Positions 16,079-45,800 are shown, counted from the stretch's first letter. The stretch: 64,000 nucleotides of DNA from Candidatus Obscuribacterales bacterium (GCA_019744775.1 JAIETZ010000005.1:124001-188000); one strand, 5' to 3'. The notes: generated from the sequence alone by a model not told the origin. A program made the numbers and translations.

Positions 16079-16207
16079 AGCCCTGTCCAGACTGACTTAA
16101 CACGTCATTGTTGCTAAAAGCTGTTAATCAAGGGGTATAATAGATCCCCTGCACCGCAGCATTTTGAAGGTAACGTCGATGAAAAATTACAGGTTATACC
16201 ATGGCAC
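16041..16207 (+). repeat. Duplicated promoter/leader block, copy 1
   Basis: About 165 bp that recur, with high identity, at 17766-17930. The block contains the promoter, the ribosome-binding site and the first ten or so codons (KNYRLYHG here, KKYRLYHG there) of two otherwise unrelated genes. Confidence 0.85.
16111..16141 (+). promoter_or_regulatory. Promoter of the subtilase gene
   Basis: TTGCTA (16111-16116), a 19-bp spacer and a perfect TATAAT (16136-16141), 37 bp before the ATG. The duplicated copy conserves both boxes. AGGGG before and CCCCT after the -10 box could pair over the start site. Confidence 0.6.
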
Positions 16208-17803: not shown

Positions 17804-17930
17804 AGCTCTGTACAGACTGACTTAACACGTCATTGTTGTTAAAAGCCGTTAATCAAGGGGTATAAATCCCCTACACCGCAGCATTTTGAAGGCAACGTCG
17901 ATGAAAAAATACAGATTGTACCACGGTAAC
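17766..17930 (+). repeat. Duplicated promoter/leader block, copy 2
   Basis: Partner of 16041-16207. Substitutions are scattered and there is a small deletion next to the -10 box. Confidence 0.85.
17836..17866 (+). promoter_or_regulatory. Promoter of the TadG-like gene
   Basis: TTGTTA (17836-17841), a 19-bp spacer and TATAAA (17861-17866), in the same arrangement as the subtilase promoter. The -10 box lies between AGGGG and CCCCT. Confidence 0.55.
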
Positions 17931-22299: not shown

Positions 22300-25200
22300 A
22301 TGCTTCGTCAGCGCTTTTTTGCGTCCTTATCGCTCATTCTATTTGCGTTTACTAGTTACGTGCCCATAGCACGGGCACAAGACGCTTCTGCGGCAGCACC
22401 AGCAGAAACTCAACACCATTGCCACGGCGGCGGTGGCTGGGGCGGCCAGACTAACGTCAATTTGGACTTGGGCTCAACGGCGGCAACCGTTACTGCGCCA
22501 GCTTGCGCCTCAACTCCTGTAAACATCAATATGGGCGGTGCAATGACAGCAATCGCCCCTGGTAGCCAGGTAACCCCGGCTCAAATGGTAGCTATTCAAC
22601 AAGTCATGCGGACAGGCAACCAGACCCTCATGCTCAACGCCATGGGCGCCGCCGAATCAGGCACCATGATGCTGGGCGCCAGAATGAGCCAGGTAATTAG
22701 CAGCCTGACAATTCCGCAAGGTGTTACTGTTTTGCAAAACGTAGCTCAATCAGGCGGTCTTAGCCTGGTAGGCAATTTGGTCAATTCCGGCAATCTATAT
22801 GCTTTTACATCCAACCCGGCAGTAACAGCTGCAACCTACGCAGCCCAAAACATCACCAATAACCAGAATGCTGTCTTGTCGACGCTGCTACCGGCTGCCT
22901 TACAGGCTAGTCTCAATCCAGCACTGACAAGTCTTACGCTCAATCTGACCGCAATAAACAATATCGTAAACGCAGGCACAATAACCAGCTCTGCCAACTT
23001 AAATCTCTACGCAGGTGGCTCAATTGTGAATGCCCTACCTGCAGGCGTTACTGGAATGAATCCAGTTATGCAGGCAATGCAGTCTTTGTCGCTAACTGCG
23101 CTATCCGGCTCAATTCAGAATGCCGGAGTTATGGCAGCTAATCTTGGCAATATCAATGTTCAAACAGCTCAAACTGCCAATCTTGCTTTGAACAACGTAA
23201 ACGGCGTTATGCAGGCAATGAACGGTGCGATTAACATCCGCGACAGCTTGTCATCAGCCAAGGTGAACAGTGAGTTGACTGGTGGTGATTTCATTGCGAA
23301 ACAACTAAATGTGTTTTCCGGCAATGGCATAGCCAATATATACGCAAACAATATAAGCGGGTTGGTAAATATTACCGCCGGCGAAGCTCATGTTAATACC
23401 GTTAGTGAAAATCTCGCTCTTGGTTCAATGAACCTCTCAGGTGATCCAACATTCTTCAACTCCGGCGATATCCAAATTACAGGCAACATCACAGTTGGCG
23501 AGAAGTTGGCAATCATTGCCGGTGGTGACATATATATCCCAAATGGATCAGTTGTAACGAAGATAGCTGCGCAAACCACGAATTCCGGCTTCGATATCAA
23601 TATTATTGCCGGAGCTAATATCACAAGCGGCAACGGTCCCAGCTCAACACTTTCCGGCACTCCGCCATCAGGAGGTGCGACAAGCATAGTCACTATTGAC
23701 GGTGCATCAGCCAGTGGCGGCGACATCGATTTTTCTGCGGCTCCAGGTCTTGAAATTAATACCCAGGGCGCTTCATTTGGTCCGGGCGGCAACATAACCT
23801 TGGCCGCTTATGAAGGCACTGGTGGGGGTGGCGGACACGTCATAGTACCTGGATGGCTACGTTCAAATGGCAGTACAACAGCTGGTGACATAACTGTAAT
23901 AGCCGGAACAACTTCAACTGCTCCAATTACTGTTCAGTCAGGAGCCAGCGTTAGCGATGCAGTTCTATTGGGCGCAATCAGCACCCAAAATTCAGGCGGT
24001 GGTGGCTTTGTGCTCATTGCGACCGGTCAGCCAGTTAGTTCAACAGGAGCTCCGATTCAATTCAACACAGATGGAAGCACAGTAAATAATGCCAGGATTA
24101 TGGCACCCACTGCGCATAACGCTACAAACATCCGCTTTCAAGGTTCCGTCGTACCTGAGTCTATACTGGCAGTCACGGGCGGAAATATAGTCATAACCAC
24201 ATCAGGCAGCATTTCCAATTTCAGTGCTTCGGCAATAGCTCTTGCTGCTGGAGGAAATATCAGTTTAGGTGGATATCTAGATACGCAGTCTTCTCCAATT
24301 ACCGTGGTCGCAGGCGGCAATATTCAAACTACCGCTCAAATTAGCATCGAAACAACACCCAACTCAGCTCCCGCTTCTCAGAATGGACATATAAGACTGA
24401 TTGCCGGGGCTAATTTCTTTACGGATAATTCAAACGCAATCAATATTACCGGCGGTTCGGGAACCGGCGGTAATATTACACTTCAAGTTGGCACTAGTCT
24501 TCTTACTGATCGCAACGGCTTCAGTGGGAATGCTGGAGACATTACTTTGATTGCATATTCCAATGGTGCCACCGGCGGGATAATTTCTCTTCCTGGATTT
24601 GGTTCACCAGCTTCGGTAATTTCCACAGGCGCTGCGGGCACTGGCATTAATGGTGACATCACTGTAATTGCCGGCTCCAACAGCACTTCGACAACAATCT
24701 CATCTTCACCTGGATGCGTCTTCTGCATTACCTACCCATCATTTTGGACAAGTGGAGGCACTGGTGGCAACGGTAACGTAACAGTAGCTTCCGCCGTTCC
24801 GGAAATTATTTGTCCTGGTTGCACGAACAACTATTACACAATTGCCGCTAATGGTGTAAGCACTGGATATTTCACGGCCGGTAATTTACTGGCGGGTGAC
24901 ATTGCAATCAACCCGATAACCACCGGCTCTAATAGTTTGGTTCAAATATACTCAACAGGATCAATAAATGTAGCAAGTGGTCCTGTAACTGCTTGTGCAG
25001 GATGCGCTCTTGTGGGTGGATCGCCAGCTTCGATAATCACGAATTGTTCAGGCTGCACAGTGGTTAACAACACCAACATCCCTTCATCGGCAATTGCAGC
25101 CATCAATGCCGCCGGTGCCTTTACGCTAACAATCATTAGCGCTGCAGACGGCAACATCACACTAGGTTCCGGCTCCGCTCTCAATATATTTGCACCAAAT

Positions 25201-28200
25201 GGCGCCACCCTAATTGCTAACGGAAGCGGAAATATAACACAATTCTCCACGTCAACCATCAACACAAGCAGCATCAATCTTGCTTCAGCTACAGGCAATA
25301 TAGGATCCTTAACGGAGCCAATCATCATCGGCAACAGCTCCGGAGACAATTTCAATATGCGCGCTTCTACTAGTGGTGGAGATGTCTACGTTCTTCCTTT
25401 GGGCATGGTAACTATTGGAGGAGGTACAGCGGGAAGTGGCAAGACATTTTGGGTACATACCATTCCCAACGGTAATGGCTACGGCCGAATTGCCTATACC
25501 GGACCAATTGTTGCGTCCGGCGGCACGATTGATTTCCAATCTACATCTATTAATCCAGGACTAGGCGGCATTATTGCTATCGGTCCAAATGCCTACTTAA
25601 GTGCATCAAATATTATTTTGAATGACATCGGCAACAGTACAACTGCCGGAGCCGCTGATATTAGTGGTGAGAACGGCACGCAAATGAATATCACTGCCGA
25701 TCAGTTAACCGTCAGCACAAGCGGCAAAGTAAATATCAACAATAGTGGTACAAATATCACAGTCAATCAATTAGATGGCTCAGAAACCAATTTAACAACC
25801 GATGGAGATATAAACCTAGCGGCACTAATTGCCACTAATGGAAGACCATTCTCACTTAGCTCAGCCGGTAATATCGGCTTATCCAATAGCATACTGACCA
25901 CAGGCGGATCGCTCTCGCTTATTTCCGGAGGTAGCATTCTTACGCAAACCGCAGGTGTATTCATTAGCACCAATAATGGAGCCACAGGTGACTCCGGCGA
26001 CATCATAATAATCGCCGGAGCTAACTTCACAACAGACGAAGATGGAGCAGTAATTGTCAACGGACAATCAGGCTCAGGCGGCAGCGTAAACCTGGATAAT
26101 GGCAATCCGTCGCTAGGAATTGACTCTTCTGCCACCGGGTCAGGAAACGCCGGCAATATCACGATACTTGCTTTTGGCGGAGCCGTAGTTCTTCCCAACA
26201 CTGTATCTATCACTGCCAATGGTGCAGGCGCTACAAAAACCAACGGCAATGTGCTAATTGCTGGAGCCGGCGGTGTTCAACTAGGTGATATTTCCGCTGT
26301 CGGCGGAGGCGGTGGCTACGGCAGCATAACAGTTGCTACTGCTCAACCTGCGATCTTGTGCCCATCGTGTTCAACCAATAGTGTCAAAATTGTTGATGCC
26401 AAAACCAATATCACCACGGGTATATTTACCGCCGGGGCGATAACTCTGTCACCACTGGATATCGGTGGCAATGTTTTCGGTAGTGGACTAGTTCAAATCA
26501 TAAGTGCCGACACAATTAATATTGGCGGAAATGTTATAGGAGGTTGCTCCAATTGTGCGTTCGCCGGCATTGGTCCGGTTAACTGTCCTGGATGCACCTC
26601 ATTAACGATCGTATCCAGTTCAAACATCTCCGTTAATGGCGGCGGTGGCAGTGGCGTGACTGTCGACCTTACAGGAGGCACGACAAAGAAACTCTGGATA
26701 CAAACTGTCGGATCAACCGCAACGTTAACCGTTGGTGGCGGCGTAACCTTTACAGATGAACTGACACTTGTCTCCAACGGGACAATGCAAATCAACAATG
26801 CTGTAACTGGTCCAGTAATAAATATGATTGCCGGCGATATTTTCACCAATGCCAGCAATATTCAAGGAACCGGTCTTGTAACAATAGGCAGCTTGGAAGC
26901 AGTAACTAATAATGCCAACATACAAGGAACTGGCGTCCATTTCCTTATTGGTAATCAAGGATTTGAAAATTCCGGCACGGTGACCGCAACAGGACCAGGT
27001 GGAACTATTGCAGTCATTTCAATGGCGGCGCCCAACCTTATCATCAACAACACCGGCAACTTAAATAGTGGTGCTAACGGTGATGTGTTCATCATGAACG
27101 GCTTCGGTCATGTCTCGTTGGTCTCAGATCTGACTTTAGGTGCCGGCAACGACTTAACCATATTTAGCGCAGGCAATATTGTGGCAACGGGCTCAGCCAG
27201 TCAACTTTCCGGAGGCAACATTCGCTTCTTTGCCGGTGCTGAATTACAAGTTCCGGATCTTACTCAAGTTGTGGTGCCAATCTTGAGCACCATTACCGGA
27301 AAATCAAGTACGACGGGTGGCAATATCGGTCTCGAGAACTTAAATACTGTCACTGCTGACTTCAGCTATTTTGCCGCTCGCGCATCACAAAATGGAGCCG
27401 GCGTAAATGGTTCTATAGCTATAGCGATAAATACAGGCACGATTATCTCCGGTGGATTCCATGTCTTGTCTGAATCCAACACCAACCCCGCTATTACAAC
27501 TGGCGGTGTAATCAACAATAATCAGTTTTCGCACAATATTTTCGCCAGCATGACTTTCAATAACACGCCAGGGGCACTACCCGTTGCTTCTGCATCAGCC
27601 TTTATTGCCAATCAAAAGGCAGGCAGTGTCACGACTGAAAACATGATCGGGACATATTTAGGTGTAGTCGATCACACAAATGGCGTTATCGACCACGGCG
27701 ATATTGTCGGCGCCCAGACAGTTACCGCAACCACTTTTAATAGCTTTGCCTCCAGCAAGATAGATTTAAAAACAAATGTAGGCGGTGTTACTACCCGCCT
27801 AACGATGTTCGGCAACACGGCCAACACCGGACCAATGACCAAAGACGGCGCTACCATGAACAACACTCAGGCTCAGAGTCCGCCAAACAATGTGTCGGTG
27901 ACGAATTTTAACAACGGCACACCGCCGCCACCACCACCTCCTCCTCCTCCTCCGCCGCCACCACCACCTCCTCCCCCGCCGCCACCACCGCCGCCGGGAC
28001 CAACGCCACCACCGTCTAATCCGGGAGCAACTCAAGACCAGACTCCAACTAAAAGCAACAATCCACCTACCGATACAACGGGTAATACCCGCAATACTGA
28101 TGCTGACGGAACTGATGGCAGAACTGCTCAAGACTTGACACCATTTGGTGATCAAGCAGATTTACCTGATGATTGGTGGGATTGGGCCAAAGATCTTGTC

Positions 28201-31200
28201 CCACGTGGCGACAACGAATCCTACGACGATTGGAAAGCTCGCGCTAAAAACATCGCTCAGACTTTAGTCAATGCCTTTAACGAGCCGGTCACTGCCGACT
28301 TGCCTGAAGACTGGTGGGACGACTGGAAAAACCGTGTTCCACGTGGAGATGGAGAATCTTACGACGCCTGGAAGACACGCGCCCAAGGATATGCGCAGCA
28401 ATACTACAGCGGCGATCTCAAAGGTCTCATGTCCAGCATGCGCAATGGTCAGCAACGCCTGAATCAAGCTGATGGTTCCTTTAACGACATGGGTAACATC
28501 GTCGACAATTTGAAAAATGCCATCGGCAAGGACACATGGAATGGTTTGACATCGCAAGAGAAAAACAATCTTATTGCTGGGGAGCAATATGAGCGATACA
28601 CAGATGCACTAGCCGATCAGGTTGTTCAGATGATGAACAACGGCAATCAGCAATCATCACCACCTGTTGATCGCAATCAGCTTTCTTGGAGAGATGCAAC
28701 CACCAAGACTTACGGAACCGACCAAGAAGTTGCCAACGCAAATAAACTCTTCAATCAAAAATCTAATGCACTGTCCGCAAATACTGGTGAATGGAAAGAT
28801 AGTGGCTTACCTGGCGGAGATGTCTTTGATCAAGGAGACATCATTCTTGGAGAAAATTCGTCCAATACAGTAAAGGATTCCGTTAAAAAAGGCGGAGTTC
28901 AGACTTTTGTCGATAAGGGCGGCTATCAGCAAGGACAAGCCCAGTTCGACACCTCACTAACTGGTTCGTCTCAAACACAAGCAGACGCAAATCAACTGAA
29001 ATACAACTCTAATACCGGTAACTTCAGTCCAGCCGAGGCAGAAAGACAGTTCACTGGAACAATGCAGGATCCGTCGCATTATGGAACTTATGGTCCTATC
29101 CAAAGCGGCACGCTAGGATCATTGTCGCAACAGTCCGGACTCAGCCTTAATGGAAACAACTCCGGATTCAACCTCTCTAATGCTCCGGCTCTAAGTGGCA
29201 ACACCACTAACATCAACGACTACGGTCCAACTGGTTATAACGCCCCGACAACCGGTATTATCAACAAATCAATTTTGCCGGAGAATGGTGTACCAAACAG
29301 CTGGCAGCCTGGTACTGGTCAATACGCAGGACAATTCGTCCAGACTACAAACAATCAGCATAATGCTGAGGGTCTGGCATTGAGCACAATGCAAAACATC
29401 CCCGGACTTGCGCAGTCAACCGGTTGGAGCAGCACCGTCCCAGTTGGTTGCCAGGCTAGCAATTGTCACTTGACCGGTCAGAGTGTTGTTACCGGACAAG
29501 ACTTGCACATGAACAGCGCTACCGACTTAAATGGAGCAATGCAGCAGCTAGGATTAGCAGCTCAGGGCATTGTCCAAGGTGGCATTGAGCAAGGCAATAA
29601 GGGTAATGCAACCTGGTACGCAGAGCACGGTTGGGTACAAACTCCGGTCAACCCCAACTCTCTATCCCAAGTAAACCACCTGGCATCAGTTGTCTATCAA
29701 AGTGGTGGCGATGCTAAGACTTCCCACACAGGCACACTAATTGTCGAAGGCAACAATTCAGGCGTTATTGAAAGAGCAGGTGTTGGTCAAACGCCACAAC
29801 TTATATCAACATCCGACTTCACCAACGTTCACTTAGTGGACAGCAATGGCAAGCAAGTCAGCATGAGCGACGCAATCAAGAATGGCGACCTCAAGTTCTA
29901 TGTGCCTGATCAGGCAACACAGAATATTCAAGATCCTCAAGCACAGCTTAATCAACAGCAGGCGATAATGGACAACGCTAGAGTCCAAGATCTTGGACAA
30001 GGACCATTAGGTCAAGTCACTCAAGACACAGCTAAGAATTTCTTTGATCCTAATCAAATAGGCAGCAACATCACCGAAGGTGCTCAATCACTAGCCAAGG
30101 ATTTGGGACTGGATACTTTCGCTCAGAACATGCAAAATGGTGCGCAAACCGTACAAAGCGGCGCTCAGCAATTGCTCGACAACTTCCAATCGGGCATGCA
30201 AAACATTATGCAAAATAATCCACTTGTTGGACACTTAGTTGCCAGCGAGGGCAGCGATGCGCAGGGAATGCAGCAGCCAAAACTCGATATGAGTAACGGC
30301 GGTGTCGGCAGTGAATCGCCAAACTTCGGAGAATCATTATTGCAAAGCCTCAGCAAGTCTATGGTTACAAATAAGATTGATCAAGGCACTCAAGCAATCA
30401 CCGATACCTTCATGGATACAGACAATCCACTTGTGATGGACGCAGCTAAACTCGGCGGCGCGGCTTTGGCGGTACCAGTCTCCGGTGGCATACATACTGC
30501 AGAAGCCTTTAACCCAATGGTTAAGCAATTGGACAATCTTTTGGGTGCAATAAATCAAGCAGGTAATGCCGGAGCAGATTTTGGCGAGCAAATTCACAAT
30601 AAAGGATTGGGAGCTGCTTTGCAGGACAGTTTCAACAGTCTTTCCCAGAACACTGACCTAAACACATTAGGCAATGCACTTAATCCGATGGAATTTGTCG
30701 ACAATACCAAAGCCGGATGGGATTCAATTGGCAATGCGGCTAACAATCTTGGTAGTGCTATTCAAAAGGATCCAGGCGGAGCCTTGGGTACCGTCATTGG
30801 AGAAACATCCAACATATTGCTTCCTGATCCGCTGATTTTGGGTGGCGCTAAGGTACTAGGCGCACTCAGCGATGCAGGAAAAGCAGCCACCGAAATTAAG
30901 GGAGCCGCAACCCTTGCAGACAATATGCCACAAGTCGTGAAGCAAACCGGAGGCAAAGTACCAGGTGACACTCATGCAATCACATTTTCCGATGGCAGTT
31001 CCGTTCTGCACGACAGGACAACAGGCAATCTGGTGCGAGATCTGGGCTCTGGAGAAAAGGTATCTCTTGAGGGAGGAGCCTGGAAAAACGAAGGGCTAGA
31101 CGATTCATCAAAATTCGCAACCAATCTCAAAGAATTACAATCCAACCCTAATGTGCCGATACCACTCATGGATTTGGCAAAGAGCTCATCATTTAAAGAA

Positions 31201-33006
31201 GTCGTGTCAAACATTCCTGACGGCTTTAAGATGTTCGATGCCGGTGGCGAAGCTCTGGTATTAAAGAATGCCAACAACGACATTTTGAGAATTAGCCCCA
31301 CCGATAAAGTAAACCGTCCAAATACTCCTTCCGTGCTTCAACCAACAGAAACCAAACAGGTTGGTGGGTACACCATGGAAGTATTACCGTATGCTCCAAG
31401 CGATGGTCTAGGAGCGGCCGATTTACAGCAGGTCACAAACCAACTAGCTAAAGAAGGATATCAATTCCAAAATGGACCAGGCAGGTTTGAAGGCATTGTA
31501 AGTAATATTGGTAAAACAGCAGACGGCAAACTCGTTGTAACAGATGCCAATGCAGTTGAACCAATCCCAGGATTCAAACCACCAACAAGTGCAGCCAATA
31601 AAGAACTTACGCTCGGAAATAATGGCGCAGTCCAAGCCAGCATGTCTGACATCATGAAGATGCTCAAACAAGAAGGAGTCTCGACCAATGATGTCGCCAA
31701 CGCTGGGCGTATTGGAGAATCAGATGCACAGCCATTTTTATCCGTTCTTCCAGGCAGTAAAAACGACACCGCCTTCATTCAGGGCGCAATGAAAGACGCT
31801 TCCCAGGGACAAGTACTCAGATATGACGGTAGCGGCAATCCCTATTCTTCGACTGGTGTTGAAATGGGATGGATTACACCTACAGCTGAACAACTCAAAG
31901 GACAAGGGACAAGTCTCACGGCAAAAGCACCAGATGGCGTAACTTCTATCGTGTCAGGCGGTGAAGACCGAATTGCTTTTGGTAGTGAAATCCCCTTGGA
32001 TATTGGCGGGCATACTCATACTCATGATGGGTTCGCTCCATCGTCATTCGACTGGCAGGCTCTTGCTACGATCAATCAAACCAGAGCTACTGTTGGGCTA
32101 CCTCCGATTACATCGTCTTTCGTATTGGATGTACCGACAGGATACACACATAATTTTGGAACGCAAACTATGTCGGTTACAGGTGGTACGCATCCTGTTG
32201 GAACAGGTTCTCTTTCTACTCAAGCCATTACGCAATCCGGTGCTTCAGGAGTGAATATCCCAACGCAACTGCCTTACGGCTCATTTGCTTTACCGTCAAC
32301 TTCGGGGACGGTTGATTTGTCGGTAAGCCCCGGCGTCAAGAATGTCAGCTTTGTTCCAGATAACGGACCGACTCCAGCTGCCCGAATGAATCAAAAAGCG
32401 TCAGCAAGTTGGGTCAATGAGCACCCTGATTTAAGCAATGATTGCGAGCCCGTTTACCTGGCGTCGGCGACTCCACCAGTGGTGGCACCACATGCAGCAG
32501 CCGACACAGTATCGGAAAATGCCGTAGCCGGAGTGGTTGCCGGCACTAAATGCGCATACAATGTTGCCGTATCCAATGGCACCTTGAGCGTTCCAAAGGG
32601 AGCTTGCGTATTCATTCGAGATAGAGGTAGAGATGTTGGTGTTTACGTTTTTGAAAGTAGCGGACGAGCAGATGTTATCTATCGTGGCGAGCAAGGACAC
32701 TTCACTACCCTTAAGCCCGGACGCTTCCTGATCATAACTTCCGGTCACGATATCGATGCAGCTGATGCGAATCCTGTAATGATCTTTGGACTGCGCGGCA
32801 TTGAAGAAATTCCTTTAGGTAAGGAATACAAAGCCTACACTGGCGACTTTTCAATATTCGCAGCTTGTGCAGAATTGCCCGATTTCAGAAATATGCTCAA
32901 GTCCAAGGATGCATCCGAACGTAGGATGGCTCGCGGCATCTTGAAAAACGTGGCAATCTTGGGTCAAATCACCGCAGGTGAAGGACCATTCAAACAAGTT
33001 CGGTAA
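22300..33006 (+). CDS. Giant modular exported protein A (3568 aa)
   Basis: Signal peptide at residues 1-26. Residues about 50-1870 are FHA-like beta-helical repeats (INNIVNAGTITSSANLNLYAGGSI, GGDIYIPNG, GNITLAAY) with recurring CxxC motifs. A 25-proline run (1875-1899) leads to twin DWW repeats (about 1955-2045: LPDDWWDWAKDLVPRGD, LPEDWWDDWKNRVPRGD). Then: a Cys/His segment (C2389, H2476) resembling NlpC/P60 or CHAP amidases; a kinase-like segment (K2989 in EALVLK, D3082 in VTDAN); a JAMM metalloprotease signature (E3188, H3238, H3240, S3248, D3251); and a FecR-like domain (about 3408-3568). ATG with AGGGGAGA upstream. Probably surface-located and co-transcribed with the outer-membrane-like gene 63 bp downstream. 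Domain names beyond the JAMM motif are inference. Confidence 0.85.
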   Translation: MLRQRFFASLSLILFAFTSYVPIARAQDASAAAPAETQHHCHGGGGWGGQTNVNLDLGSTAATVTAPACASTPVNINMGGAMTAIAPGSQVTPAQMVAIQQVMRTGNQTLMLNAMGAAESGTMMLGARMSQVISSLTIPQGVTVLQNVAQSGGLSLVGNLVNSGNLYAFTSNPAVTAATYAAQNITNNQNAVLSTLLPAALQASLNPALTSLTLNLTAINNIVNAGTITSSANLNLYAGGSIVNALPAGVTGMNPVMQAMQSLSLTALSGSIQNAGVMAANLGNINVQTAQTANLALNNVNGVMQAMNGAINIRDSLSSAKVNSELTGGDFIAKQLNVFSGNGIANIYANNISGLVNITAGEAHVNTVSENLALGSMNLSGDPTFFNSGDIQITGNITVGEKLAIIAGGDIYIPNGSVVTKIAAQTTNSGFDINIIAGANITSGNGPSSTLSGTPPSGGATSIVTIDGASASGGDIDFSAAPGLEINTQGASFGPGGNITLAAYEGTGGGGGHVIVPGWLRSNGSTTAGDITVIAGTTSTAPITVQSGASVSDAVLLGAISTQNSGGGGFVLIATGQPVSSTGAPIQFNTDGSTVNNARIMAPTAHNATNIRFQGSVVPESILAVTGGNIVITTSGSISNFSASAIALAAGGNISLGGYLDTQSSPITVVAGGNIQTTAQISIETTPNSAPASQNGHIRLIAGANFFTDNSNAINITGGSGTGGNITLQVGTSLLTDRNGFSGNAGDITLIAYSNGATGGIISLPGFGSPASVISTGAAGTGINGDITVIAGSNSTSTTISSSPGCVFCITYPSFWTSGGTGGNGNVTVASAVPEIICPGCTNNYYTIAANGVSTGYFTAGNLLAGDIAINPITTGSNSLVQIYSTGSINVASGPVTACAGCALVGGSPASIITNCSGCTVVNNTNIPSSAIAAINAAGAFTLTIISAADGNITLGSGSALNIFAPNGATLIANGSGNITQFSTSTINTSSINLASATGNIGSLTEPIIIGNSSGDNFNMRASTSGGDVYVLPLGMVTIGGGTAGSGKTFWVHTIPNGNGYGRIAYTGPIVASGGTIDFQSTSINPGLGGIIAIGPNAYLSASNIILNDIGNSTTAGAADISGENGTQMNITADQLTVSTSGKVNINNSGTNITVNQLDGSETNLTTDGDINLAALIATNGRPFSLSSAGNIGLSNSILTTGGSLSLISGGSILTQTAGVFISTNNGATGDSGDIIIIAGANFTTDEDGAVIVNGQSGSGGSVNLDNGNPSLGIDSSATGSGNAGNITILAFGGAVVLPNTVSITANGAGATKTNGNVLIAGAGGVQLGDISAVGGGGGYGSITVATAQPAILCPSCSTNSVKIVDAKTNITTGIFTAGAITLSPLDIGGNVFGSGLVQIISADTINIGGNVIGGCSNCAFAGIGPVNCPGCTSLTIVSSSNISVNGGGGSGVTVDLTGGTTKKLWIQTVGSTATLTVGGGVTFTDELTLVSNGTMQINNAVTGPVINMIAGDIFTNASNIQGTGLVTIGSLEAVTNNANIQGTGVHFLIGNQGFENSGTVTATGPGGTIAVISMAAPNLIINNTGNLNSGANGDVFIMNGFGHVSLVSDLTLGAGNDLTIFSAGNIVATGSASQLSGGNIRFFAGAELQVPDLTQVVVPILSTITGKSSTTGGNIGLENLNTVTADFSYFAARASQNGAGVNGSIAIAINTGTIISGGFHVLSESNTNPAITTGGVINNNQFSHNIFASMTFNNTPGALPVASASAFIANQKAGSVTTENMIGTYLGVVDHTNGVIDHGDIVGAQTVTATTFNSFASSKIDLKTNVGGVTTRLTMFGNTANTGPMTKDGATMNNTQAQSPPNNVSVTNFNNGTPPPPPPPPPPPPPPPPPPPPPPPPPGPTPPPSNPGATQDQTPTKSNNPPTDTTGNTRNTDADGTDGRTAQDLTPFGDQADLPDDWWDWAKDLVPRGDNESYDDWKARAKNIAQTLVNAFNEPVTADLPEDWWDDWKNRVPRGDGESYDAWKTRAQGYAQQYYSGDLKGLMSSMRNGQQRLNQADGSFNDMGNIVDNLKNAIGKDTWNGLTSQEKNNLIAGEQYERYTDALADQVVQMMNNGNQQSSPPVDRNQLSWRDATTKTYGTDQEVANANKLFNQKSNALSANTGEWKDSGLPGGDVFDQGDIILGENSSNTVKDSVKKGGVQTFVDKGGYQQGQAQFDTSLTGSSQTQADANQLKYNSNTGNFSPAEAERQFTGTMQDPSHYGTYGPIQSGTLGSLSQQSGLSLNGNNSGFNLSNAPALSGNTTNINDYGPTGYNAPTTGIINKSILPENGVPNSWQPGTGQYAGQFVQTTNNQHNAEGLALSTMQNIPGLAQSTGWSSTVPVGCQASNCHLTGQSVVTGQDLHMNSATDLNGAMQQLGLAAQGIVQGGIEQGNKGNATWYAEHGWVQTPVNPNSLSQVNHLASVVYQSGGDAKTSHTGTLIVEGNNSGVIERAGVGQTPQLISTSDFTNVHLVDSNGKQVSMSDAIKNGDLKFYVPDQATQNIQDPQAQLNQQQAIMDNARVQDLGQGPLGQVTQDTAKNFFDPNQIGSNITEGAQSLAKDLGLDTFAQNMQNGAQTVQSGAQQLLDNFQSGMQNIMQNNPLVGHLVASEGSDAQGMQQPKLDMSNGGVGSESPNFGESLLQSLSKSMVTNKIDQGTQAITDTFMDTDNPLVMDAAKLGGAALAVPVSGGIHTAEAFNPMVKQLDNLLGAINQAGNAGADFGEQIHNKGLGAALQDSFNSLSQNTDLNTLGNALNPMEFVDNTKAGWDSIGNAANNLGSAIQKDPGGALGTVIGETSNILLPDPLILGGAKVLGALSDAGKAATEIKGAATLADNMPQVVKQTGGKVPGDTHAITFSDGSSVLHDRTTGNLVRDLGSGEKVSLEGGAWKNEGLDDSSKFATNLKELQSNPNVPIPLMDLAKSSSFKEVVSNIPDGFKMFDAGGEALVLKNANNDILRISPTDKVNRPNTPSVLQPTETKQVGGYTMEVLPYAPSDGLGAADLQQVTNQLAKEGYQFQNGPGRFEGIVSNIGKTADGKLVVTDANAVEPIPGFKPPTSAANKELTLGNNGAVQASMSDIMKMLKQEGVSTNDVANAGRIGESDAQPFLSVLPGSKNDTAFIQGAMKDASQGQVLRYDGSGNPYSSTGVEMGWITPTAEQLKGQGTSLTAKAPDGVTSIVSGGEDRIAFGSEIPLDIGGHTHTHDGFAPSSFDWQALATINQTRATVGLPPITSSFVLDVPTGYTHNFGTQTMSVTGGTHPVGTGSLSTQAITQSGASGVNIPTQLPYGSFALPSTSGTVDLSVSPGVKNVSFVPDNGPTPAARMNQKASASWVNEHPDLSNDCEPVYLASATPPVVAPHAAADTVSENAVAGVVAGTKCAYNVAVSNGTLSVPKGACVFIRDRGRDVGVYVFESSGRADVIYRGEQGHFTTLKPGRFLIITSGHDIDAADANPVMIFGLRGIEEIPLGKEYKAYTGDFSIFAACAELPDFRNMLKSKDASERRMARGILKNVAILGQITAGEGPFKQVR

Positions 33007-33069: not shown

Positions 33070-34338
33070 GTGAACGGCATCCTTACTACGTCTCCCGTAA
33101 ATATTGGCAAATTTATTAGCTGTTTGTTGATTACTTCAACAGCTTTGCCTGCTTCGGCACAGACATTTACCAATCAGACTGCAGGACAAGGTTCTACGCA
33201 ACCCCAAGCCGTTGCCCAGCTGATTGCGCAACCCAGCCTGGATAGTGGCCGCTTTGCGCCTGTAAACCCGACTGTTCTTCCAACGGACATCAATCCACAA
33301 TTATTCTCATCCGAGCGCTCTATGGTCAATCGCGATTTGCAATTCGCCATATTGAAACGTCTGCCGGAACGCATGTGGTTCAACATGGTTACCGAAGCCA
33401 GTCAGCGCTTGGAAACCAACGTATTCTTCACCAACAGTCGCCCGAGACAAGACTACGTTTTCCGTATTTTGCCGAACGTATCTCTTGGATATAACATTTT
33501 CAGCAAGACTGCAGTCTACTGCAATTGGTTTTTGATCAAAGACGTCTTCGCCTCACATTGGCAACTCAGCAAGCCAGTGACTCAATCACTCTCACTTGGC
33601 TTTCGTCAGGACATCCCGATTTTTAGAAAGACAAACCTTCAATTTGATTTTCAAGCTCGTGAATTATGGCAAGCTCCACATTTGCAACAAGCGGATTTAC
33701 TGCCGGCAATCAATTTGACCCAAATAGTCAAGCCTAATATTGTTCTTTTCGGCAGCAGTCTTCTCCAGTTAAGAAGCCACTATTACTTCCAGGGCGCCAC
33801 TCGTGAAATAGATCCCTTCTGGTCAGGTGGACTTCTCTACCGTCGCGGCATGTGGAATTTCACAGCAACTGCAACTTATGTTGCTAACTTCCGCAACCGT
33901 AATGCAATTCCCCCTATCAACAACCAATCTATGATCTGCGATTTTGAATTATCACGTCCCGTATCTAAAAAGGTCCCCAGTGTCGTAAGCTTCATTCGTG
34001 CAGAACCAGTCTGGAACTGGGGAGCGCCGGGCAACCCACCAGGACTTAGCGGCTTCGATTTTCGTCTCTTTAGTGGCATTCGCGTGGCAATGAACAAGCC
34101 GGCATACAATGCCACCGTTGACCAATTGCGCAAGCAATTATTGGAGATGGAAGAAGCACCACCTGCCAATAATACTGAACCGAAAAAGACGAGTTACATG
34201 TCTCCTGAGCCTGTATACGATATGCATGGTCTCTTGCCGGGAAATGCAAACTCGGAAAATATGAATATTGCATGTTCCACAAATAGCGTCAATTCAGGTC
34301 GTACAGCTTGCGAATCGTCTCTCTATCACGTGAAGTGA
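33070..34338 (+). CDS. Putative outer-membrane beta-barrel-like protein 1
   Basis: A 422-aa protein with a signal peptide (ISCLLITSTALPASAQ). The core (residues about 75-360) has alternating aromatic/polar strands (DYVFRILPNVSLGYNIF, SLSLGFRQDIPIF, NLQFDFQARELWQ, SHYYFQGATREIDPFW) as in barrel proteins, with a soluble Gln/Glu-rich tail. I do not recognise a named family. It is very similar to the protein at 35453-36691, and both are next to a giant gene, which suggests a role in export or anchoring. GTG start. The last 50 bp overlap the convergent metzincin gene. Confidence 0.65.
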   Translation: MNGILTTSPVNIGKFISCLLITSTALPASAQTFTNQTAGQGSTQPQAVAQLIAQPSLDSGRFAPVNPTVLPTDINPQLFSSERSMVNRDLQFAILKRLPERMWFNMVTEASQRLETNVFFTNSRPRQDYVFRILPNVSLGYNIFSKTAVYCNWFLIKDVFASHWQLSKPVTQSLSLGFRQDIPIFRKTNLQFDFQARELWQAPHLQQADLLPAINLTQIVKPNIVLFGSSLLQLRSHYYFQGATREIDPFWSGGLLYRRGMWNFTATATYVANFRNRNAIPPINNQSMICDFELSRPVSKKVPSVVSFIRAEPVWNWGAPGNPPGLSGFDFRLFSGIRVAMNKPAYNATVDQLRKQLLEMEEAPPANNTEPKKTSYMSPEPVYDMHGLLPGNANSENMNIACSTNSVNSGRTACESSLYHVK

Positions 34339-35452: not shown

Positions 35453-36691
35453 GTGCTCCGCCCCCGTCAACGAAGATTCAAATATCTTGCCTTGAGCACT
35501 CTACTTGCTTCGTTGAGTTTTAGCTCTGGCGCCTCTGCCCAGCCAGCGCCGCCCAACCAACAAAATAATACAAATCAGCAAAATTCAATTGCGCAACAAA
35601 ATCTTGATAAGGTTCTAGTTGCAGCAGCGCCTGCTGGTGATGTCGTTCCTTTTAACCCAACTGTACTTCCGACAGACGTCAACCCAGAGATGTTCACCGG
35701 CGAGCGCTCCATGATGAGCCGCGATTTGCAGTATGCTATTTTGAAGAGACTGCCGAGTCGCATGTGGTTCAACATGGTGACTGAAGCGAGTCAACGTCTT
35801 GAAACCAACGTCTTTTTCACAAGCAACAAACCAAGGCAAGACTATGTCTTTCGTATTCTGCCTAACTTATCCTTAGGCTACAACGTCTTTAGCAAGACTG
35901 CCGTCTATTGCAATTGGTTCCTCATCAAAGACGTCTTTGCCGATCACTGGCAGTTGAGCAAACCGGTTACACAGTCACTCTCACTAGGTTTCCGTCAAGA
36001 TATTCCACTTTTCAAAAAGACAAACTTACAATTCGACTTCCAAGCTCGTGAACTATGGCAAGCTCCACATTTCCAGCAAGCGGACTTATTGCCTGCCATC
36101 AACTTAACTCAAATAGTCAAACCAAATTTCGTCCTTTTCGGCAGCAGCTTAATGCAATTGCGCAGTCACTACTATTTTCAGGGTGCCAAAAGAGAAATAG
36201 ATCCATTCTGGTCATGGGGTTTCCTTTACCGCCGCGGGATGTGGAATTTCACTGCCACCAGCACTTACGTGGCTAACTTCAGAAATAAAACTGCTATTCC
36301 ACCAATCAATAACCAATCAATGATCTGCGACTTTGAATTATCGCGACCAGTGTCCAAGAAAACGCCCGGCATCGTAACCTTCATCCGCGCAGAACCAGTC
36401 TGGAACTGGGGCGCACCAGGCAATCCACCAGGACTAAGTGGTTTTGACTTTCGTTTATTTAGCGGCATTCGAGTAGCCGTCAACAAACCTGCCTATAACT
36501 CGACCGTCGAATTTCTGCGCAAACAAATAATGGAGCAAGAGGAAGCAGCACCACCAGAAAGCAAGCCAAAAGAAACAAGCCAGCAACCGGACGTCATCTA
36601 TCCGGCACCAGTAACAACTCCGCATGGTTTACTATCGCTTGCCACCTCAAAAGGTGACGCAATACATGCAAAATTGCTGCCTGAATCGTAG
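35453..36691 (+). CDS. Putative outer-membrane beta-barrel-like protein 2
   Basis: A 412-aa paralog of the protein at 33070-34338. The whole core, from NPTVLPTD through KPAYN, is nearly the same; the signal peptide (LALSTLLASLSFSSGASAQ), the Asn/Gln-rich spacer and the C-terminal tail differ. GTG start. It is 153 bp upstream of giant gene B, while its paralog is downstream of giant gene A. The strict core conservation beside diverged ends suggests strong constraint on the barrel-like part. Confidence 0.65.
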   Translation: MLRPRQRRFKYLALSTLLASLSFSSGASAQPAPPNQQNNTNQQNSIAQQNLDKVLVAAAPAGDVVPFNPTVLPTDVNPEMFTGERSMMSRDLQYAILKRLPSRMWFNMVTEASQRLETNVFFTSNKPRQDYVFRILPNLSLGYNVFSKTAVYCNWFLIKDVFADHWQLSKPVTQSLSLGFRQDIPLFKKTNLQFDFQARELWQAPHFQQADLLPAINLTQIVKPNFVLFGSSLMQLRSHYYFQGAKREIDPFWSWGFLYRRGMWNFTATSTYVANFRNKTAIPPINNQSMICDFELSRPVSKKTPGIVTFIRAEPVWNWGAPGNPPGLSGFDFRLFSGIRVAVNKPAYNSTVEFLRKQIMEQEEAAPPESKPKETSQQPDVIYPAPVTTPHGLLSLATSKGDAIHAKLLPES

Positions 36692-36771: not shown

Positions 36772-36844
36772 GGTTTTAAGAACGCGGAATAACGCTGGCT
36801 AAGCCTTATTTTTGTCGTCTTCACATGTTGCATCGGGGAATTAT

Positions 36845-39800
36845 ATGAAACGTCTTTGTTTACAGCGGCTATTTGCCGGCGTTGCAGCTTCATTTCTACT
36901 ATTGACCACTTGCCTTCCGCCAGCCTTGGCTCAAGAAGCCGCCGCACAAGCAGCACAATCGGCTACCGCCGCAGCGGTTAATTTGGACCTATCCTCGACT
37001 GAAGCGAGCGTTATGGTCCAATCCGTGGGGCAAGCGGCTGCAGTGCATGTAGATATGGCCGGCACTATGGTCCCGATTACGGCCGGAGCCCAGGTAACGC
37101 CTGCCCAATTTGTAGCTCTACAGCAGATAATGCAAACGGGCACCCAGACCTTAATGTTAAATGCCATGGGGGCAGCCCAGTCTGGCACCTTCTCGATGAA
37201 TTCTGCCCTTACAAGTATGATGGGCAATTTGACCATTCCATCTGGTGTAACAGCTCTCCATGACGCTGCCGGTGCTTCAATGGTCAACCTCACCGGCAAC
37301 CTAGTAAACTCCGGCGCATATTACGCCTATACGTCTAATGCCGCGGTGACTGCAGCCACTTTGGCGGCACAAAACATAACCAACAATCAAAGCGCCATTA
37401 TCTCTACCATTCTGCCGGCGGCTCTGCAGGCAAGCTTAAATCCTGCCCTGACAAGCCTCAGTCTCAATTTGAGCGCCATCAACAACATTGTCAACGCCGG
37501 TACTATCAGCAGTGCCGCCAACTTAAATCTCTACGCCGGCGGCTCAATAATTAATTCACTCCCACCGGGTGCTACCGGCCCGTCACCAGTCATGATGGCC
37601 ATGCAAGCACTAAACATGACAGCCTTAAATGGTGCCATCCAAAACTCAGGCGTTATGGCTGCCATGCTGGGCAACATCAATGTACAGGCGGCACAAACAG
37701 CCAACATGACACTCAATAACGTCAATGGAGTCCTGCAAGCTTTGAATGGCTCGATAAACATTCGTGATAGTTTGATGACCACCAAGGTAAATACTTCGCT
37801 CTATGGAGGAGACTACATCGCCAAGCAACTGAATATTTACTCCGGCGAGGGAGCTGTTGATGTAAATGTTAGAGACATTAGTGGTGTCGCCAGAATCACA
37901 GCCGGAATAGCTCATGTGATGACTGCCAACCCAACACTAAAACTTGGTGAGATGAATTTGAGTGGTGATCCGACTTACTTCAACACTGGCGATATTCAAA
38001 TTACGGGAAACATTCTTGTCGGTGAGGCGCTCTCCATAGTGTCCGGAGGCAGCATCTATATTCCTAACGGCACTACAGTCAACAGAATTCAAGCCAACAG
38101 TGCGACAACCGGACAGGGCTTTGACGTCACTATCATTGCTGGTGCAAACATAACTGGCGGCACTGGTTCTACCGGAGCGATCTCTGGAAGCCCACCAAGT
38201 GGCGCAGCGACCAGTCCTGTGACCATAAGCGGGCCATCGTTAACCGGCGGAGACATCGACTTTTCCGCCAGTCCCAATATGCAAATCAGCTCCTGCTCCG
38301 GCTGCTCACCAGGTCCGGCATGTTTCGGTTGCGTTGGACGCAATATCACATTAGCTGCATATTCCGGCACAGGCGGCGGAGGTGGTCATGTAATAGCGCC
38401 AAATGTTTTTGTTGTGTCCGGTTCCAGCGGCAACGGAGATGTAAATGTTATTGCAGGCGCCAATACCGCAGCACCAATTGTCGATCAAACTGGTGCAACA
38501 GTAACTGATGCCATTGTATTTGGTAACTCCCTTACATTTGGCAGCAACAACACGGGAAATATTAATCTATACACCGCGCAACCAAGTACAAATCCAATCG
38601 TATTCGGAACCAATGGAGCAATTACATCCGGCAGTATCACCCCCCAAACGACACTTAAACCAACCAACATCCAATTCTCCAGATTCATATTTATCACTGG
38701 TGGACTCCGTGCTTATGCCGGAGGAAATCTTTCTGTAGCTAACGGTGCCGCTCTCCAAGTCAGCAATAACGGACCCTTGACACTTGCGGCAAAAGGTAAT
38801 GTCTTTCTCGATGCAAATCTAAGTTCCAGAAGAGGCGGGATGCTTTCCATAATCGCTGGACAAGACATTCAATCACTATCAGAAATCAGCATCGACACAG
38901 TTCCCACTACCTTTAGTGGCACACCAGTAAATGCTGGTGCGATGAATTTCATCGCGGGAGCCGACTTTTCAATAAGTCCGACATACGACATTGTCATAGC
39001 ACCTGGAGCATCAGCCACCGGCGGGAACATCTCTCTGTCAAGCGTAAGGAAAATTGACTCACACGATTCTACCAATTTTTTAGGTAGTGGTGGAGACATC
39101 AACTTTGTCGCGCTAGCTAACGGAGTGTCTGGCGGAACCATCACACTGCCGGGATTTGGTGGTAATACCGTCTTCAGTATTACGACGGGAGGCGATACAC
39201 CAGGACAAAACGGCAATGTCACAATAATCGCAGGATCACCAAGCACAGCAACAACAATAACCTCCCAACCTGGCTGTACCTTCTGCCTCCCAACCGCTTC
39301 AATTAACACGGCTGGTGGGACAGCCGGAAATGGCAACATAACGATAGCATCAGCGACTCCTGAAATTGTTTGTCCCGGCTGCCCAACAACAAATATAACT
39401 ATTAGCTTCAGTGGTGTTCAAACCGGATTCTATTCCGCTGGAGCATTGCAGCCCGGAGACATTCTGCTCAATGCGCTCACGACGCCATCGAAGAGCTTAG
39501 TTCAATTATTTACACAGGGTACAGTAACATCTGGAGCAGTGACGGCTTGTGCCGGCTGCGCGCTAGTCGGCGGCGATATTGGTTCGACAGTTGTCGGATG
39601 CGCCGGATGCACTGTTGTTGCTGACACCAATATTCCTTCTGCAACATTGGCCGCGATCAATGCAACAAACGTAGCCAACATCACCATCGCCACAGTTAAT
39701 AGCGGCGATATCATAATCGGCAATGGCTCACCGATTGCTTTGTCCGCCAGTAATAGCCTTAGGCTCATAGCAAATGGCTCAGGCGACATAACCCAATTCC

Positions 39801-42800
39801 TCACCTCGACGCTGTCGACAGCCAATTTCACGGCAGTTAGTGTCTCCGGCAATGTAGGAACTCCAGCAGCTCCTTTAGTGCTGCTGAGTCCTACTGCTCA
39901 ACCCATCAATATCTCTGCATCAGCTGGTGGAAATGTTTACCTAGCTCCCACCGGTTCGGTAAATCTAGCAAGTGGTTATGCAGGCGGTACAGGACAGACC
40001 TATTATGTCCACACAACAGCAAATGCGGGAGGCAATGGACGCATCTTCGTGGTTGGCTCTCTGACAGCGACAAATGGCACACTGGACCTGCAAGCGTCAT
40101 CATCAGGAACAGGACAAGGCGGAATAATTGGCGGTCCTTTATCACCGGTCCTCACAGCTAACAATATTTTGTTGTTTGACATTGGCACAAGCACAGCAGT
40201 TGGGGCAGGCAATATCAATGGACAGCAGCAAGTACAAGGTGGAACTATCACGTCGCCCCTTCTTATTGATGCTTCAGATCTTTCGATCAACACTTCCGGA
40301 GCAGTAATTATTGAGAACCTCAGCAGTTCTATAACTATCAATCAACTAGTATGTTCATCATTTGAATTTGTCGGAGCCGGGGATTTATTAGTCAATACAC
40401 CAGTGGACAGCGCAGGCGGTCCACTACTATTGTCCACTACAGGTAATTTAGGGTTGGGCGCAAATTTAACAAGCACAGGTGGCAACATTCTGCTAATAGC
40501 TGGTGGCGACATCTACACATTCCAACCTAACGTGTCTATTACTTCCACGCCGACAAGCCCTGGCTCGGGAGCACAAATCAACATTATTGCCGGCACTGTT
40601 TTCTTTAGAACTGGCAACCAATATGCAGTCGGTGGTGCTTCTGCAACAGGTGGCAATATCAACTTGAATAATGGCAATCCTGTTATTGCATTAAGCTCTG
40701 TCGCAAACGGCTCTGGTGACGGCGGCAATATCAACATAATTGCCTATGCATCTAGCGGCGGTTTAGGTGGCAGTATTGTATTGCCACCAACTCTGACCGT
40801 TACAGCAGACGCATCTGGTCCTGGATTTGCCAATGGAAATGTCCTCATAGTAGCCGGCGCACTCAGCACTGCCAGCAGCATTGGCAGTGTAAGCGCAGGA
40901 CTTGGTACCAACTATGGCAGTGTTACCTTTGCCTCAGCAACACCATCTTCGTTTTGTCCAATATGCGCGGGCAACTTTGTCACTATTTCGAACGGGGCAG
41001 TTTTTCCAAATAATGGCATCTTTGCGGCAACAACCTTGTTGGGCGCACCAATAACAGTCAGCGGTAACATATCATCCAGTGGAATTGTTCAATTGTTCTC
41101 TACCAATTCAGTGACAGTCACAGGCACCGTCACAGCCAATCCAAATTGTACCGGTTGCATTATCGCCGGCACCGGCACAGTTAATTGCCCCTCTTGCGGA
41201 GCTGCCGCATCGGGCACAAACCTTGCCATCAATGGACCAGGACCACTTTTAGGACCAGAAAACCTGATAACCTTTACCGGTAGTGTGCCTAGTCTATTCA
41301 TTCAAGCTGTAGGAGGATTGAACACCTATATCAGTGTTGATAGTCTTCCTGGATTGTCCATAAGCGGCAACCTTACTCTAGCTGCACCGATGGGCAGCAT
41401 TTTTCATTCCGGCGGCGGTACAACCAGTGCTCAGACAATTTCACTCTATGCACTAAATAATATTTTCAATGATGCCAGTACATTAACATCCACTGGCATG
41501 ATGACAATTGCGGCACAAAATGCTTTCGTCAATTCCAATTCTGCTACCGTGCAGGGCGACAATGTAGCAATTGTCACCGGACAGTTCTTTAATGACAGTT
41601 CAATAACTGCAACTGGAACTGGCCAGATTGCAGTTCTTACTCAAAGAGCGAGTAATTTAGTAATAAATCCAATCGGCGGCACGCTCACTGGCAATACCGT
41701 ATTTTTCATGAATGCCACTACTACAGGGCTCGGTGGAACAGTCGAATTATTTGGTGATCAACTATATACCGGTGATGCATTTTACGTATTTGCTAGTGGC
41801 GATATCAATGCTGATGCCAGTGTCACCCAAATTTCAGCATTCGGCCTAAATTTCTACGCAGGCGCGCAACTAAATATGCCAAGCTTGACTGGTTCTTCGA
41901 TTGATATTTTAGGTACGATCACCGGCAATTCGAGCTCTAGTGGTGGCAATATCAATTTAGGCAACGTATCAAGCATAACCTCTAACGGGTTTGGTGATTT
42001 CTTCGGTGCACGAGCCGGTGGTCCAAATGGCACAAAGGGCCGTATAACAATGGCTACAGCAGGGCTTATGACAGTTGATGACGCAAGACTCCTTGCTGAG
42101 GCAAATGGCGGACAAGGCATAACTATTGGTGATGCGGTTGTCACCAGTGACTCTTCATCGTTCAGGCTTATTACGATGGACTTTCCAACAACGGCAGGCA
42201 TTTTGCCGTCAGCTCCTATAGGACTTTTTAGTCCATTAATTAAGGATGCTGATGTTACGGCAGGCGACATTTCCGGTGGGTTAAACGTAATCGTAAATAG
42301 CAAAGGCAACAACGTAATTGCAAATATTCTTGGACCAGTACAACTTCTTGCTGCGACATTTAAGACTTTCAATGTAGACAACATCAATTTAGTTACAAAA
42401 TTTGGGATACCAACAAGAATAATTGCTTCCGGTACCACCGCGAACATCGGAGCCATCAGAAGCAATGGCATATATCAACCAAATCCACAAAGCACTCCAC
42501 CAAATCAAATTTCGATCACAAATTTGAATTATCCATCAGGACCAACACCGCCACCTCCACCTCCACCTCCACCATCTCCTCCAGCTCCGTTGCCACCTAC
42601 TCAGTCGAGACCAGACCCAAACACACCACGCCGAATAGAGACCACATTTCAACCACCGGTCTCTCAAACAAACAACGATAGAACGGGCACGGACGGCAAG
42701 ACTCCTTTAGACTTCACGCCATTTGGTGATGTCGCCGATATTCCACAAGACCTCATAGACTGGCTCAAAGACGTAATTCCCCGCGACCCGAACCAGACTT

Positions 42801-45800
42801 ATGACGACTGGGCAAAAGACGTAAGACAACTGGCACAAGCCCTAAACAATCTGAACAGTCAGCCGCCCAACGTAAATCTCCCTGAAGATTGGTGGGATGA
42901 CTGGAAAAATCGTGTGCCGCGTGAACATGACGAAACCTACGATGCCTGGAAAGACCGTGCACAAGGCATGGCTCAGCAATATTTCAATGGTGACATGAAA
43001 GGCTTGATGACAAGTCTGCGCAACGGCAAAGAAAGAATAGACGAAAGTAAGATGCCCTGGAATGACATGGGCAACATCATCGACAATCTCAAATCAGCTG
43101 TCGGTAAAGATGCCTGGGCAGGCATGTCATCACAGGAAAGAAATGGCTTAATTCAAGGCGAACAGGGTGCTCGATTTCAGCAATACCTGGCAAGTCAGCC
43201 ACAAACTCCCGTGTTTGACAGAACACAACAGAGCTGGAGAAATGCGACAACCAAGAGCTACTCGCCAGAGAAGATAAATGAGATGCTCCAGAAACAGGGT
43301 GTTAAGAGTATCGATCAGCTAAGAGATATCGAAAAAGCGAGAGCCAATTCGCCTGAGCAACATTCGACCTTTGAATTATGGAAAGACAGCTCAGGTACCC
43401 AGTTTAAAGTAGATCTCTTTTCTGGTGATATGACACCAGCCTTTTCCTTTGGTCAAGATGGAATTATTTATGGTATTGATACTGCCGGCACTGTGCGTGC
43501 GGATGATCCGAATGCAGGCAAATTCCAAGAACACGCCCAACGGTTCGATCTTAGTGTCAGTCATCAAGACTTTGCCAGAGCAGACATTAATGAGATGAAA
43601 GGCATAGGCAATGACTTCCGTGCGCAGGGACCGACTTCTGCGTTTGTCGGAAATCCAAATGCGGACGGCTCAGGCATCAACAAGTTTGGAAGCACTTATA
43701 ATCCAGCAGTTACAGGCAATGCAAACATTAACAACTACGGACCTGGTTATGCCGGATACAATCCACCAACGACTGGCAACGTAGGTAGCATTCTTCCAGG
43801 GAAATTATCGAACATCTATAACAAAACCGACGGTGGCGAATATCAATTAGACAACAAAGCTGGAAGCAATTCCGTCAAACAAGCTCTCGGGGTAATGGGT
43901 CAGATGCAAGGGACACAAGACTCAATTGGCTGGTCTAGTGCTCAAAGCTGGGGACAACAATGCAGCAATTGTCACCTAACTGCCCAATCAGTCGTCACAG
44001 GACAAGATTTGCATGCAGACAGCAAAGAAGCAGCTATAAATGCCAATGGCGGATTTGGGAAAGGCAATATGGCTTCCGCTACAGATATGGCTCAACATGG
44101 CTGGGTGCAAACACCAGTCAATTGGGACAACATGTCGCAAATCGATCATATTGGCTCGCTAACTTATCAGTATAAGAACGATGTTCAAACATCTCATAGC
44201 GCGACAATTATCAAAGAAGGACAGAACACCGGAATGCTCGAACGATCCGGTGCGGGTTACTCGCCGACGTTAATTAACAAGACGGACTTTGCCAATGTTC
44301 ACCTTGTCGATTCAAATAACAATCCTGTCTCTCCACAAGATGCACTCGCAAGCGGCATGATGAAAGTGTATGTTCCAGATACAAAGACATCTCAAATTCA
44401 AGATCCGGACGCTCGCGCTAGCCAGCAGCAAGCCATTATGGACCATGCGCGTATGACAGATGTTGGACAAGGCGGTATTGCCCAAGACAATCTGGTGAAG
44501 AGCTTCATCGATCCGAATACGTTCATTAGCAACAGCAAAGAAGGGCTAAATACAATCCAAAACGAATTCTCTAAGCTCGTCCAAGGAGCCCAACAGAATG
44601 CTCAAAATCTAGCCCAAGCCGGTAATCAGTCCGTTCAGCAAATTCAAAAGCAAATGGAACCCTTAGTCGGACATCTTGTTGCCAGCGATAAAACTGACGG
44701 TCAAGCTCAAGCAATGATGCAACCAAAATCGGCCCCTGATCCTAACGCTAAGCCGGATGCAATGGATGGACTAATTAAGAGCATGGTCACTGATCCAATT
44801 AGTGATCTGACAAAACTTGGCACCCAAGCATTTGCAAATACAAGTGATCCTGATGTTATGGCAGCCGCCAAACAATTCGGTACTATTGCTGGCGTAGCAA
44901 TGTCCGAGTATAAATTCGCTCAACCGATTATAGAGATGCATACAGATCCAGGCGCTGCTATTGGTCACAGCATTGAAAACACTATAAAAGCAACAGGCAA
45001 CACACTGTCTGAAATAAACAAAGCCGGTGGCATTGGTCCATACTTAGATACCAAAGTAGATGCTATGACAAACGCCGCACACAAAGGCGTTGACGCAGTC
45101 GCTGAAAATCCTGCATACACGCTTACCGAAGCTGCAGGAAAGGGACTCAACTTACTGCTGCCAATTCCAGGAGGCAAACTTGCTGCATCCGGAAAAATTG
45201 CCGAAGAAGTTGGCGGCGCAACCAAACTAGCAGGTGAGATTCAAGCCGCAGGTGAAACAACTGGGCTTATCGGCGAAGCTGCAGGAAATCAAATCAGCCA
45301 CGGAAATACAGGCGCAGTTCAAGCGAGCATGTCCGATATTAAGAAAGCGCTCGAGCAAGGAGGAGTATCGACTCAAGATATAGCAAATGCTGGAAGAATT
45401 GCTGATTCAGACGCACAACCATTTTTGTCAGTTCTGCCAGGAAATGAACACGATATGGCATTCGTACAAGGAGCAATGAAAGACGCCTCTCAAAATGGAG
45501 TATTAAGATATGACGCTTTTGGTAATCCATATACTGCCACAGGCGTCGAGATGGGATACATCACTCCAAGTGCTGCACAACTGAAGGGACAAGGCACGAG
45601 CCTAATGGCTTCTGCTCCTGAAGGCACTAAACTCGTTGTGTCTGGTGGACCAGATCGAATTAATTTCGGCAGCGAACAACCACTAAAACTCGACGGTCAC
45701 ACACATACCAATGACGGTTTTGCTCCGTCATCATTAGATTGGGATGCGCAAGCAACCACAAACCAAGTACGGGAATCGATGGGATTGCCACCATCCAATT

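Follow-up and report, generated by a model that had tools for sequence, protein, structure and literature searches.

The question raised by this locus is whether two giant exported proteins, A and B, carry a zinc site of the JAMM type, and what such a site would do on proteins of this kind. In prokaryotes, the JAMM enzymes described so far are for the most part intracellular or form the C-terminal domains of toxins. The window, by which we mean the whole stretch of DNA analysed, comprises 64,000 nucleotides from an uncultured Candidatus Obscuribacterales bacterium (GCA_019744775.1 JAIETZ010000005.1:124001-188000), and its relevant features are collected in Table 1. As read from the sequence, the N-termini of both giants are signal-peptide-like and lead into glycine/asparagine-rich repeats resembling those of filamentous haemagglutinin, ~1900 residues in all, then a proline stretch and finally the modules. 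BLAST comparison of the two paralogues gave 66% identity for the JAMM-like module, 52% for the C-terminus and 41% for the long N-terminal part, making the JAMM-like module the best-conserved stretch between them.

Table 1 Features of giants A and B and of the adjacent genes, with positions counted from the first letter of the window
Feature	Nucleotides	Residues	Strand	Description
Giant exported protein A	22300..33006	3568 aa	+	Signal peptide, FHA-like repeats, proline linker, enzyme-like modules, conserved C-terminal domain
Neighbouring module of A	31102..31569	2935-3090	+	Precedes JAMM-like module; 39% identity to B counterpart
JAMM-like module of A	31591..32286	3098-3329	+	66% identity to B module
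GVEMG of A	31861..31863 (Glu3188)	starts 3186	+	Candidate general base (JAMM Glu)
HTHTHDGFAPSSFD of A	32011..32052	3238	+	Candidate Zn ligands His3238, His3240, Asp3251; conserved Ser3248
C-terminal domain of A	32572..33003		+	Common to >100 giant ORFs of the order
Exported strand-rich barrel-like protein next to A	33070..34338		+	80% identity to 35453-36691; candidate surface partner
Exported barrel-like paralogue next to B	35453..36691		+	80% identity to 33070-34338
Giant exported protein B	36812..47524	3570 aa	+	Paralogue of A
JAMM-like module of B	45278..45973	2823-3054	+	Sequence comparison with A (BLAST)
GVEMG of B	45548..45550 (Glu2913)	starts 2911	+	JAMM Glu counterpart
HTHTNDGFAPSSLD of B	45698..45739	2963	+	Candidate Zn ligands His2963, His2965, Asp2976; conserved Ser2973
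Neighbouring module of B	46304..46795	3165-3328	+	After JAMM-like module (BLAST)
C-terminal domain of B	47090..47521		+	Counterpart of A domain

The signature itself is unambiguous. The pattern E-x49-H-T-H-x7-S-x2-D is present in both giants where the original prediction placed it, with the H-x-H-x7-S-x2-D spacing exact and the first His lying 50 residues after the Glu of GVEMG in A and B alike, so that the predicted motif and the predicted upstream Glu were both borne out. The published MPN+ signature is ExnHxHx7Sx2D (PMC9313428), and both modules match it in full. Glu3188 of A is invariant among the four module homologues and 17 aligned sequences of the JAMM superfamily.

The pattern is also rare. 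HxHx7SxxD arose in none of 2000 shuffled versions of A and in about 2 of 2000 shuffled versions of B, figures that are descriptive because the pattern was first chosen by eye in a long protein, although its specificity is high. When the complete 4.1 Mb genome was scanned at the DNA level with a degenerate pattern, 23 sites emerged, which on translation gave H[ST]Hx7SxxD in only three frames of more than 30 codons: A, B and an amidohydrolase-like ORF carrying HTHILPAELPSFKD without the upstream Glu. The signature including this Glu is therefore confined to A and B in the genome. Among ~277,000 residues of ORFs compared, a set in which Prok-JAB loci had been included deliberately, the motif was restricted to Prok-JAB proteins and the four module homologues.

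These homologues comprise two copies of the module (228 aa) in the source genome and two in another genome of the same genus. No further copies were found in 382 genomes of the class, 50 of the family and 386 of the phylum, or in IMG/VR viral contigs, phages and plasmids; within the genomes searched, the module is known from one genus of Candidatus Obscuribacterales only. A different family of the class gave weak matches (L085 and others, E 0.001-0.05), as did other cyanobacteria; none of these has HxH..S..D, and they were discarded as chance. Conservation of the signature, as sampled from four homologues only, is complete: all five signature residues are kept at 78% identity (L005), and Glu, both His, Ser and Asp are likewise all kept in the most distant copy (L006, 39-48% identity, 39% over the module), which has V-T-G-G after HTH where T-H-D-G stands otherwise. 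Module pairs show dN of 0.16-0.64 with dS saturated in nearly all of them, indicating that the module is under purifying selection. In L082, a JAMM-bearing giant encoded on the minus strand, the JAMM-like module is followed by an additional HEAKGH stretch, perhaps a second metal site.

Whether the module is a JAMM domain in more than its signature was addressed by alignment, profile searches and structure prediction. Related genomes supplied eight Prok-JAB and five DUF4329 proteins for a free MAFFT alignment with the module, in which exactly E, H, H and D were invariant and S nearly so, and the module Glu is followed by x-G, as in the E-x-G-G of Prok-JAB. Secondary structure prediction, at low confidence, placed a strand running into HxH, a helix starting from SxxD and strands thereafter, which is the JAMM order. 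A hairpin-like stretch, VLRYDGSGNPYSS, intervenes before the module Glu, whereas in Prok-JAB and DUF4329 a helix runs almost directly into it. Searches with the whole proteins and with the module against Pfam, NCBIfam, PHROGs and PDB sequences, as well as profile-profile searches, returned no JAMM match; the module showed no similarity to JAMM-family profiles (PF01398, PF14464, PF14220 and others), and hhalign gave no match between it and DUF4329. With a home-made Prok-JAB profile the module cores scored only about 6 bits; when the sequences were shuffled with the motif kept in place, 24-34 of 500 shuffles (5-7%) reached this level for A, B and L005, and 164 of 500 (33%) did so for L006. At the level of sequence, likeness of the module to Prok-JAB and DUF4329 beyond the motif is thus weak or absent.

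The structure models were of low confidence. AlphaFold with the four real homologues reached a pLDDT of 33; adding 13 JAMM-superfamily rows raised this to 47, with local improvement around HxH and the next helix, but such rows bias the model, so that it amounts to threading and not to independent evidence. For this biased model, Foldseek produced a weak list (E 0.78 or worse) headed by RadC and including PfJAMM1, AMSH, Rpn11 and BRCC36, and VIA-align produced nothing at a Z of 2 or more. The model built without JAMM rows had no JAMM match.

One reading of these results is that the module is some other metal-binding or structural unit, whose HTH..S..D and GVEMG have been kept for reasons unrelated to a JAMM site. 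The missing profile and fold support agrees with this, as does the recurrence of the HTH..S..D spacing in the unrelated amidohydrolase-like ORF of the same genome, yet the exact spacing, together with a Glu at a JAMM-like distance, is kept in a homologue of ~40% identity, and no search returned a competing fold; we regard this reading as unlikely. A complete and specific signature retained at such divergence instead favours a real JAMM-type metal site. The original prediction of a complete JAB1/MPN+ zinc site accordingly stands as far as the signature goes, which is present, specific and kept at ~40% identity, and falls short on profile support: it had named a lack of profile similarity to MPN domains as evidence against itself, and nominally that is what the searches against MPN-type families returned. 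We consider a JAMM-type site likely and the MPN fold putative. The module is probably a variant that works like a JAMM site, and we set it beside the JAMM enzymes as an unproven member.

The position of the module within the giants bears on its function. In A the neighbouring module precedes the JAMM-like one, whereas in B it follows, and this swap in order indicates that the modules are shuffled as units. With its swapped order and its highest conservation, the JAMM-like module behaves as a passenger. The neighbouring module appears kinase-like by eye (EVLPYAPSDGL, LVVTDANAV) and has no Pfam match. Further upstream, at ~29430-29800 (A residues ~2380-2500) and in the matching part of B, lies a Cys/His segment (SNCHLTGQSVVTGQDLH ... 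SHTGTLIVEG) that on visual inspection resembles papain. An amidase-like segment beside the JAMM site had been proposed, and it is indeed visible by eye; no profile, however, supports likeness to amidases or papain, the NlpC/P60 profile does not match, and BLAST found no counterpart of this stretch of A or B in L082, the third JAMM-bearing giant.

Downstream of the modules, the last ~145 residues of A and B form a domain that recurs across the family and order, in more than 100 ORFs and with up to 24 of them per genome. ORFs with this domain (L043-L082 among them) are often 1000-6500 residues long, one frame reaching ~12,500. Pfam has no family for the domain; it gives no support for a FecR-like domain either, and we dropped that name. 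The domain follows the JAMM-like module in every copy, so that the ‘enzymatic tip’ first envisaged does not fit exactly, the module being internal and a conserved C-terminal domain lying beyond it. Most of the sister giants that we read have repeats right up to this domain. Four of them (L047, L054, L056, L059) carry a GH17-like glucanase module just before it, in which the acidic catalytic motifs GNE and GETGW are intact and NEPWK is also present; a PDB profile search with this module returned a single match, a GH17 enzyme (E 0.005). Because these GH17-like modules precede the same domain, carrying an enzyme passenger at this place is a theme that recurs, with the JAMM-like module as this genus's version of it.

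Location between stalk and conserved C-terminal domain would also suit a processing enzyme, raising the idea that the module is a peptidase acting on its own giant, which it would cleave or trim during or after export, much as built-in peptidases such as HINT release polymorphic toxins (PMC3482391). Among the other giants that end in this C-terminal domain, however, almost none has the JAMM signature, which implies that processing does not need the module. Nor are JAMM enzymes known to act as autoproteases on their own chain, a further point against self-processing, and we judge this to be the least probable of the readings considered here.

The adjacent genes point to a partner at the cell surface. 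Directly downstream of A, 64 bases on, lies an exported barrel-like protein, and a close paralogue of it lies next to B, whose own downstream neighbour is a gene on the other strand. Relatives of the barrel-like protein occur in 44 of 50 family genomes; of the 29 closest that were compared, at least 16 have a giant bearing the C-terminal domain no more than 15 kb away, and for at least 10 of these the distance is at most 1 kb. Relatives also lie beside the giants on both JAMM-bearing contigs of the other genome. No family model in our search names this protein, and from its recurrent adjacency we infer that it is a surface or export partner of the giants. Between the two giants, 34289-35338 on the minus strand encodes a TPR protein with a matrixin-type (M10) metalloprotease domain. 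Elsewhere in the window, the products of 16164-17639 (subtilase-like by eye) and 17886-21053 (a Tad-like pilus-assembly protein) have in common an odd N-terminus, L-K-x-T-S-M-K-x-Y-R-L-Y-H-G.

The same gene order bears on whether the module could be a toxin, that is, a Tox-JAB-like or nuclease-type JAB domain delivered to competitors by a giant resembling a polymorphic toxin. FHA-like stalks are in use among polymorphic toxins, DUF4329 proteins exist in related genomes of the family, and Tox-JAB-2 (DUF4329) has the residues E, H[ST]H, S and D and a suggested nuclease activity (PMC3482391). The DUF4329 profile, however, does not match the module, PADLOC returned no match, and neither the barrel-like gene after A nor the opposite-strand gene after B is immunity-like. 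We found neither a variable toxin domain at the extreme C-terminus nor an immunity gene directly downstream; with the module internal and the C-terminus conserved, a polymorphic toxin is improbable.

We therefore favour, with reasonable though not high confidence, the reading that A and B are giant exported surface fibres in which a JAMM-type zinc hydrolase module of divergent sequence precedes the conserved C-terminal domain. Each giant would be exported, would probably either be anchored at the outer membrane or cross it together with the barrel-like partner, and would present its modules to the exterior at the stalk's far end. If the chemistry follows that of JAMM enzymes, Zn2+ would be bound by the two His and the Asp, the upstream Glu would activate a metal-bound water, and a peptide, isopeptide or similar bond could be cut outside the cell. 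The source genome contains no Prok-JAB protein and so suggests no ubiquitin-like pathway; rather than ubiquitin, the simplest candidate substrate is a polymer or protein on the surface of neighbouring cells or in the biofilm. More tentative, and in our estimation rather doubtful, is the wider proposal of a new extracellular JAMM family in one Obscuribacterales genus, serving as an exchangeable passenger on barrel-paired giant fibres and cutting a bond in other cells or the matrix.

If the favoured reading is true, exported fibres of giant size can carry a JAMM zinc site as a passenger, in a form too diverged for any family model. The locus also points to an extensive system of giants whose enzyme modules can be exchanged; the family libraries that we searched do not contain it, and its hosts are a non-photosynthetic sister group of the cyanobacteria. 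The analysis provides a clear list of residues to test.

Set against known systems, the module shares its signature with Prok-JAB/MPN+, Tox-JAB-2 and the phage tail protein K, and in sequence and gene order showed no other membership feature among those tested. With Prok-JAB (PF14464) and MPN+/JAMM enzymes such as AMSH, it has in common ExnHxHx7Sx2D, E-x-G at the Glu and a helix predicted from SxxD; it differs from them in an extra N-terminal segment, in T or V after HxH where they have Pro, and in lacking profile similarity. The H-[ST]-H form of the motif is that of DUF4329/Tox-JAB-2 (PF14220) (PMC3482391), which likewise combines E, H[ST]H, S and D at the end of secreted stalk proteins; that family, however, occupies a C-terminal toxin position and comes with an immunity gene, neither of which applies to the module, whose His-to-Ser spacing also differs from local DUF4329 relatives and which has no PF14220 match. 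No DUF4329 protein was found in the source genome. JAB combined with NlpC/P60 is known from the phage tail protein K (PMC1779556), and A and B resemble such lambda-type proteins in joining a JAMM signature and a Cys/His segment in one chain. They are not tail proteins, however: the profile search with that segment gave no NlpC/P60 support, and PHROGs gave no match. With FHA-like giants and polymorphic toxins, A and B share a signal peptide, a long repetitive stalk and an enzyme module near the C-terminus, but in A and B the C-terminal domain is conserved, variation lies inside the chain and an immunity gene is missing downstream. Prokaryotic JAB domains have been described as intracellular, except for those in polymorphic toxins and secreted viral versions (PMC3482391). 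Whereas prokaryotic Prok-JAB/JAMM proteins are mostly small and intracellular, the signature described here belongs to an internal module of a 3500-residue exported protein.
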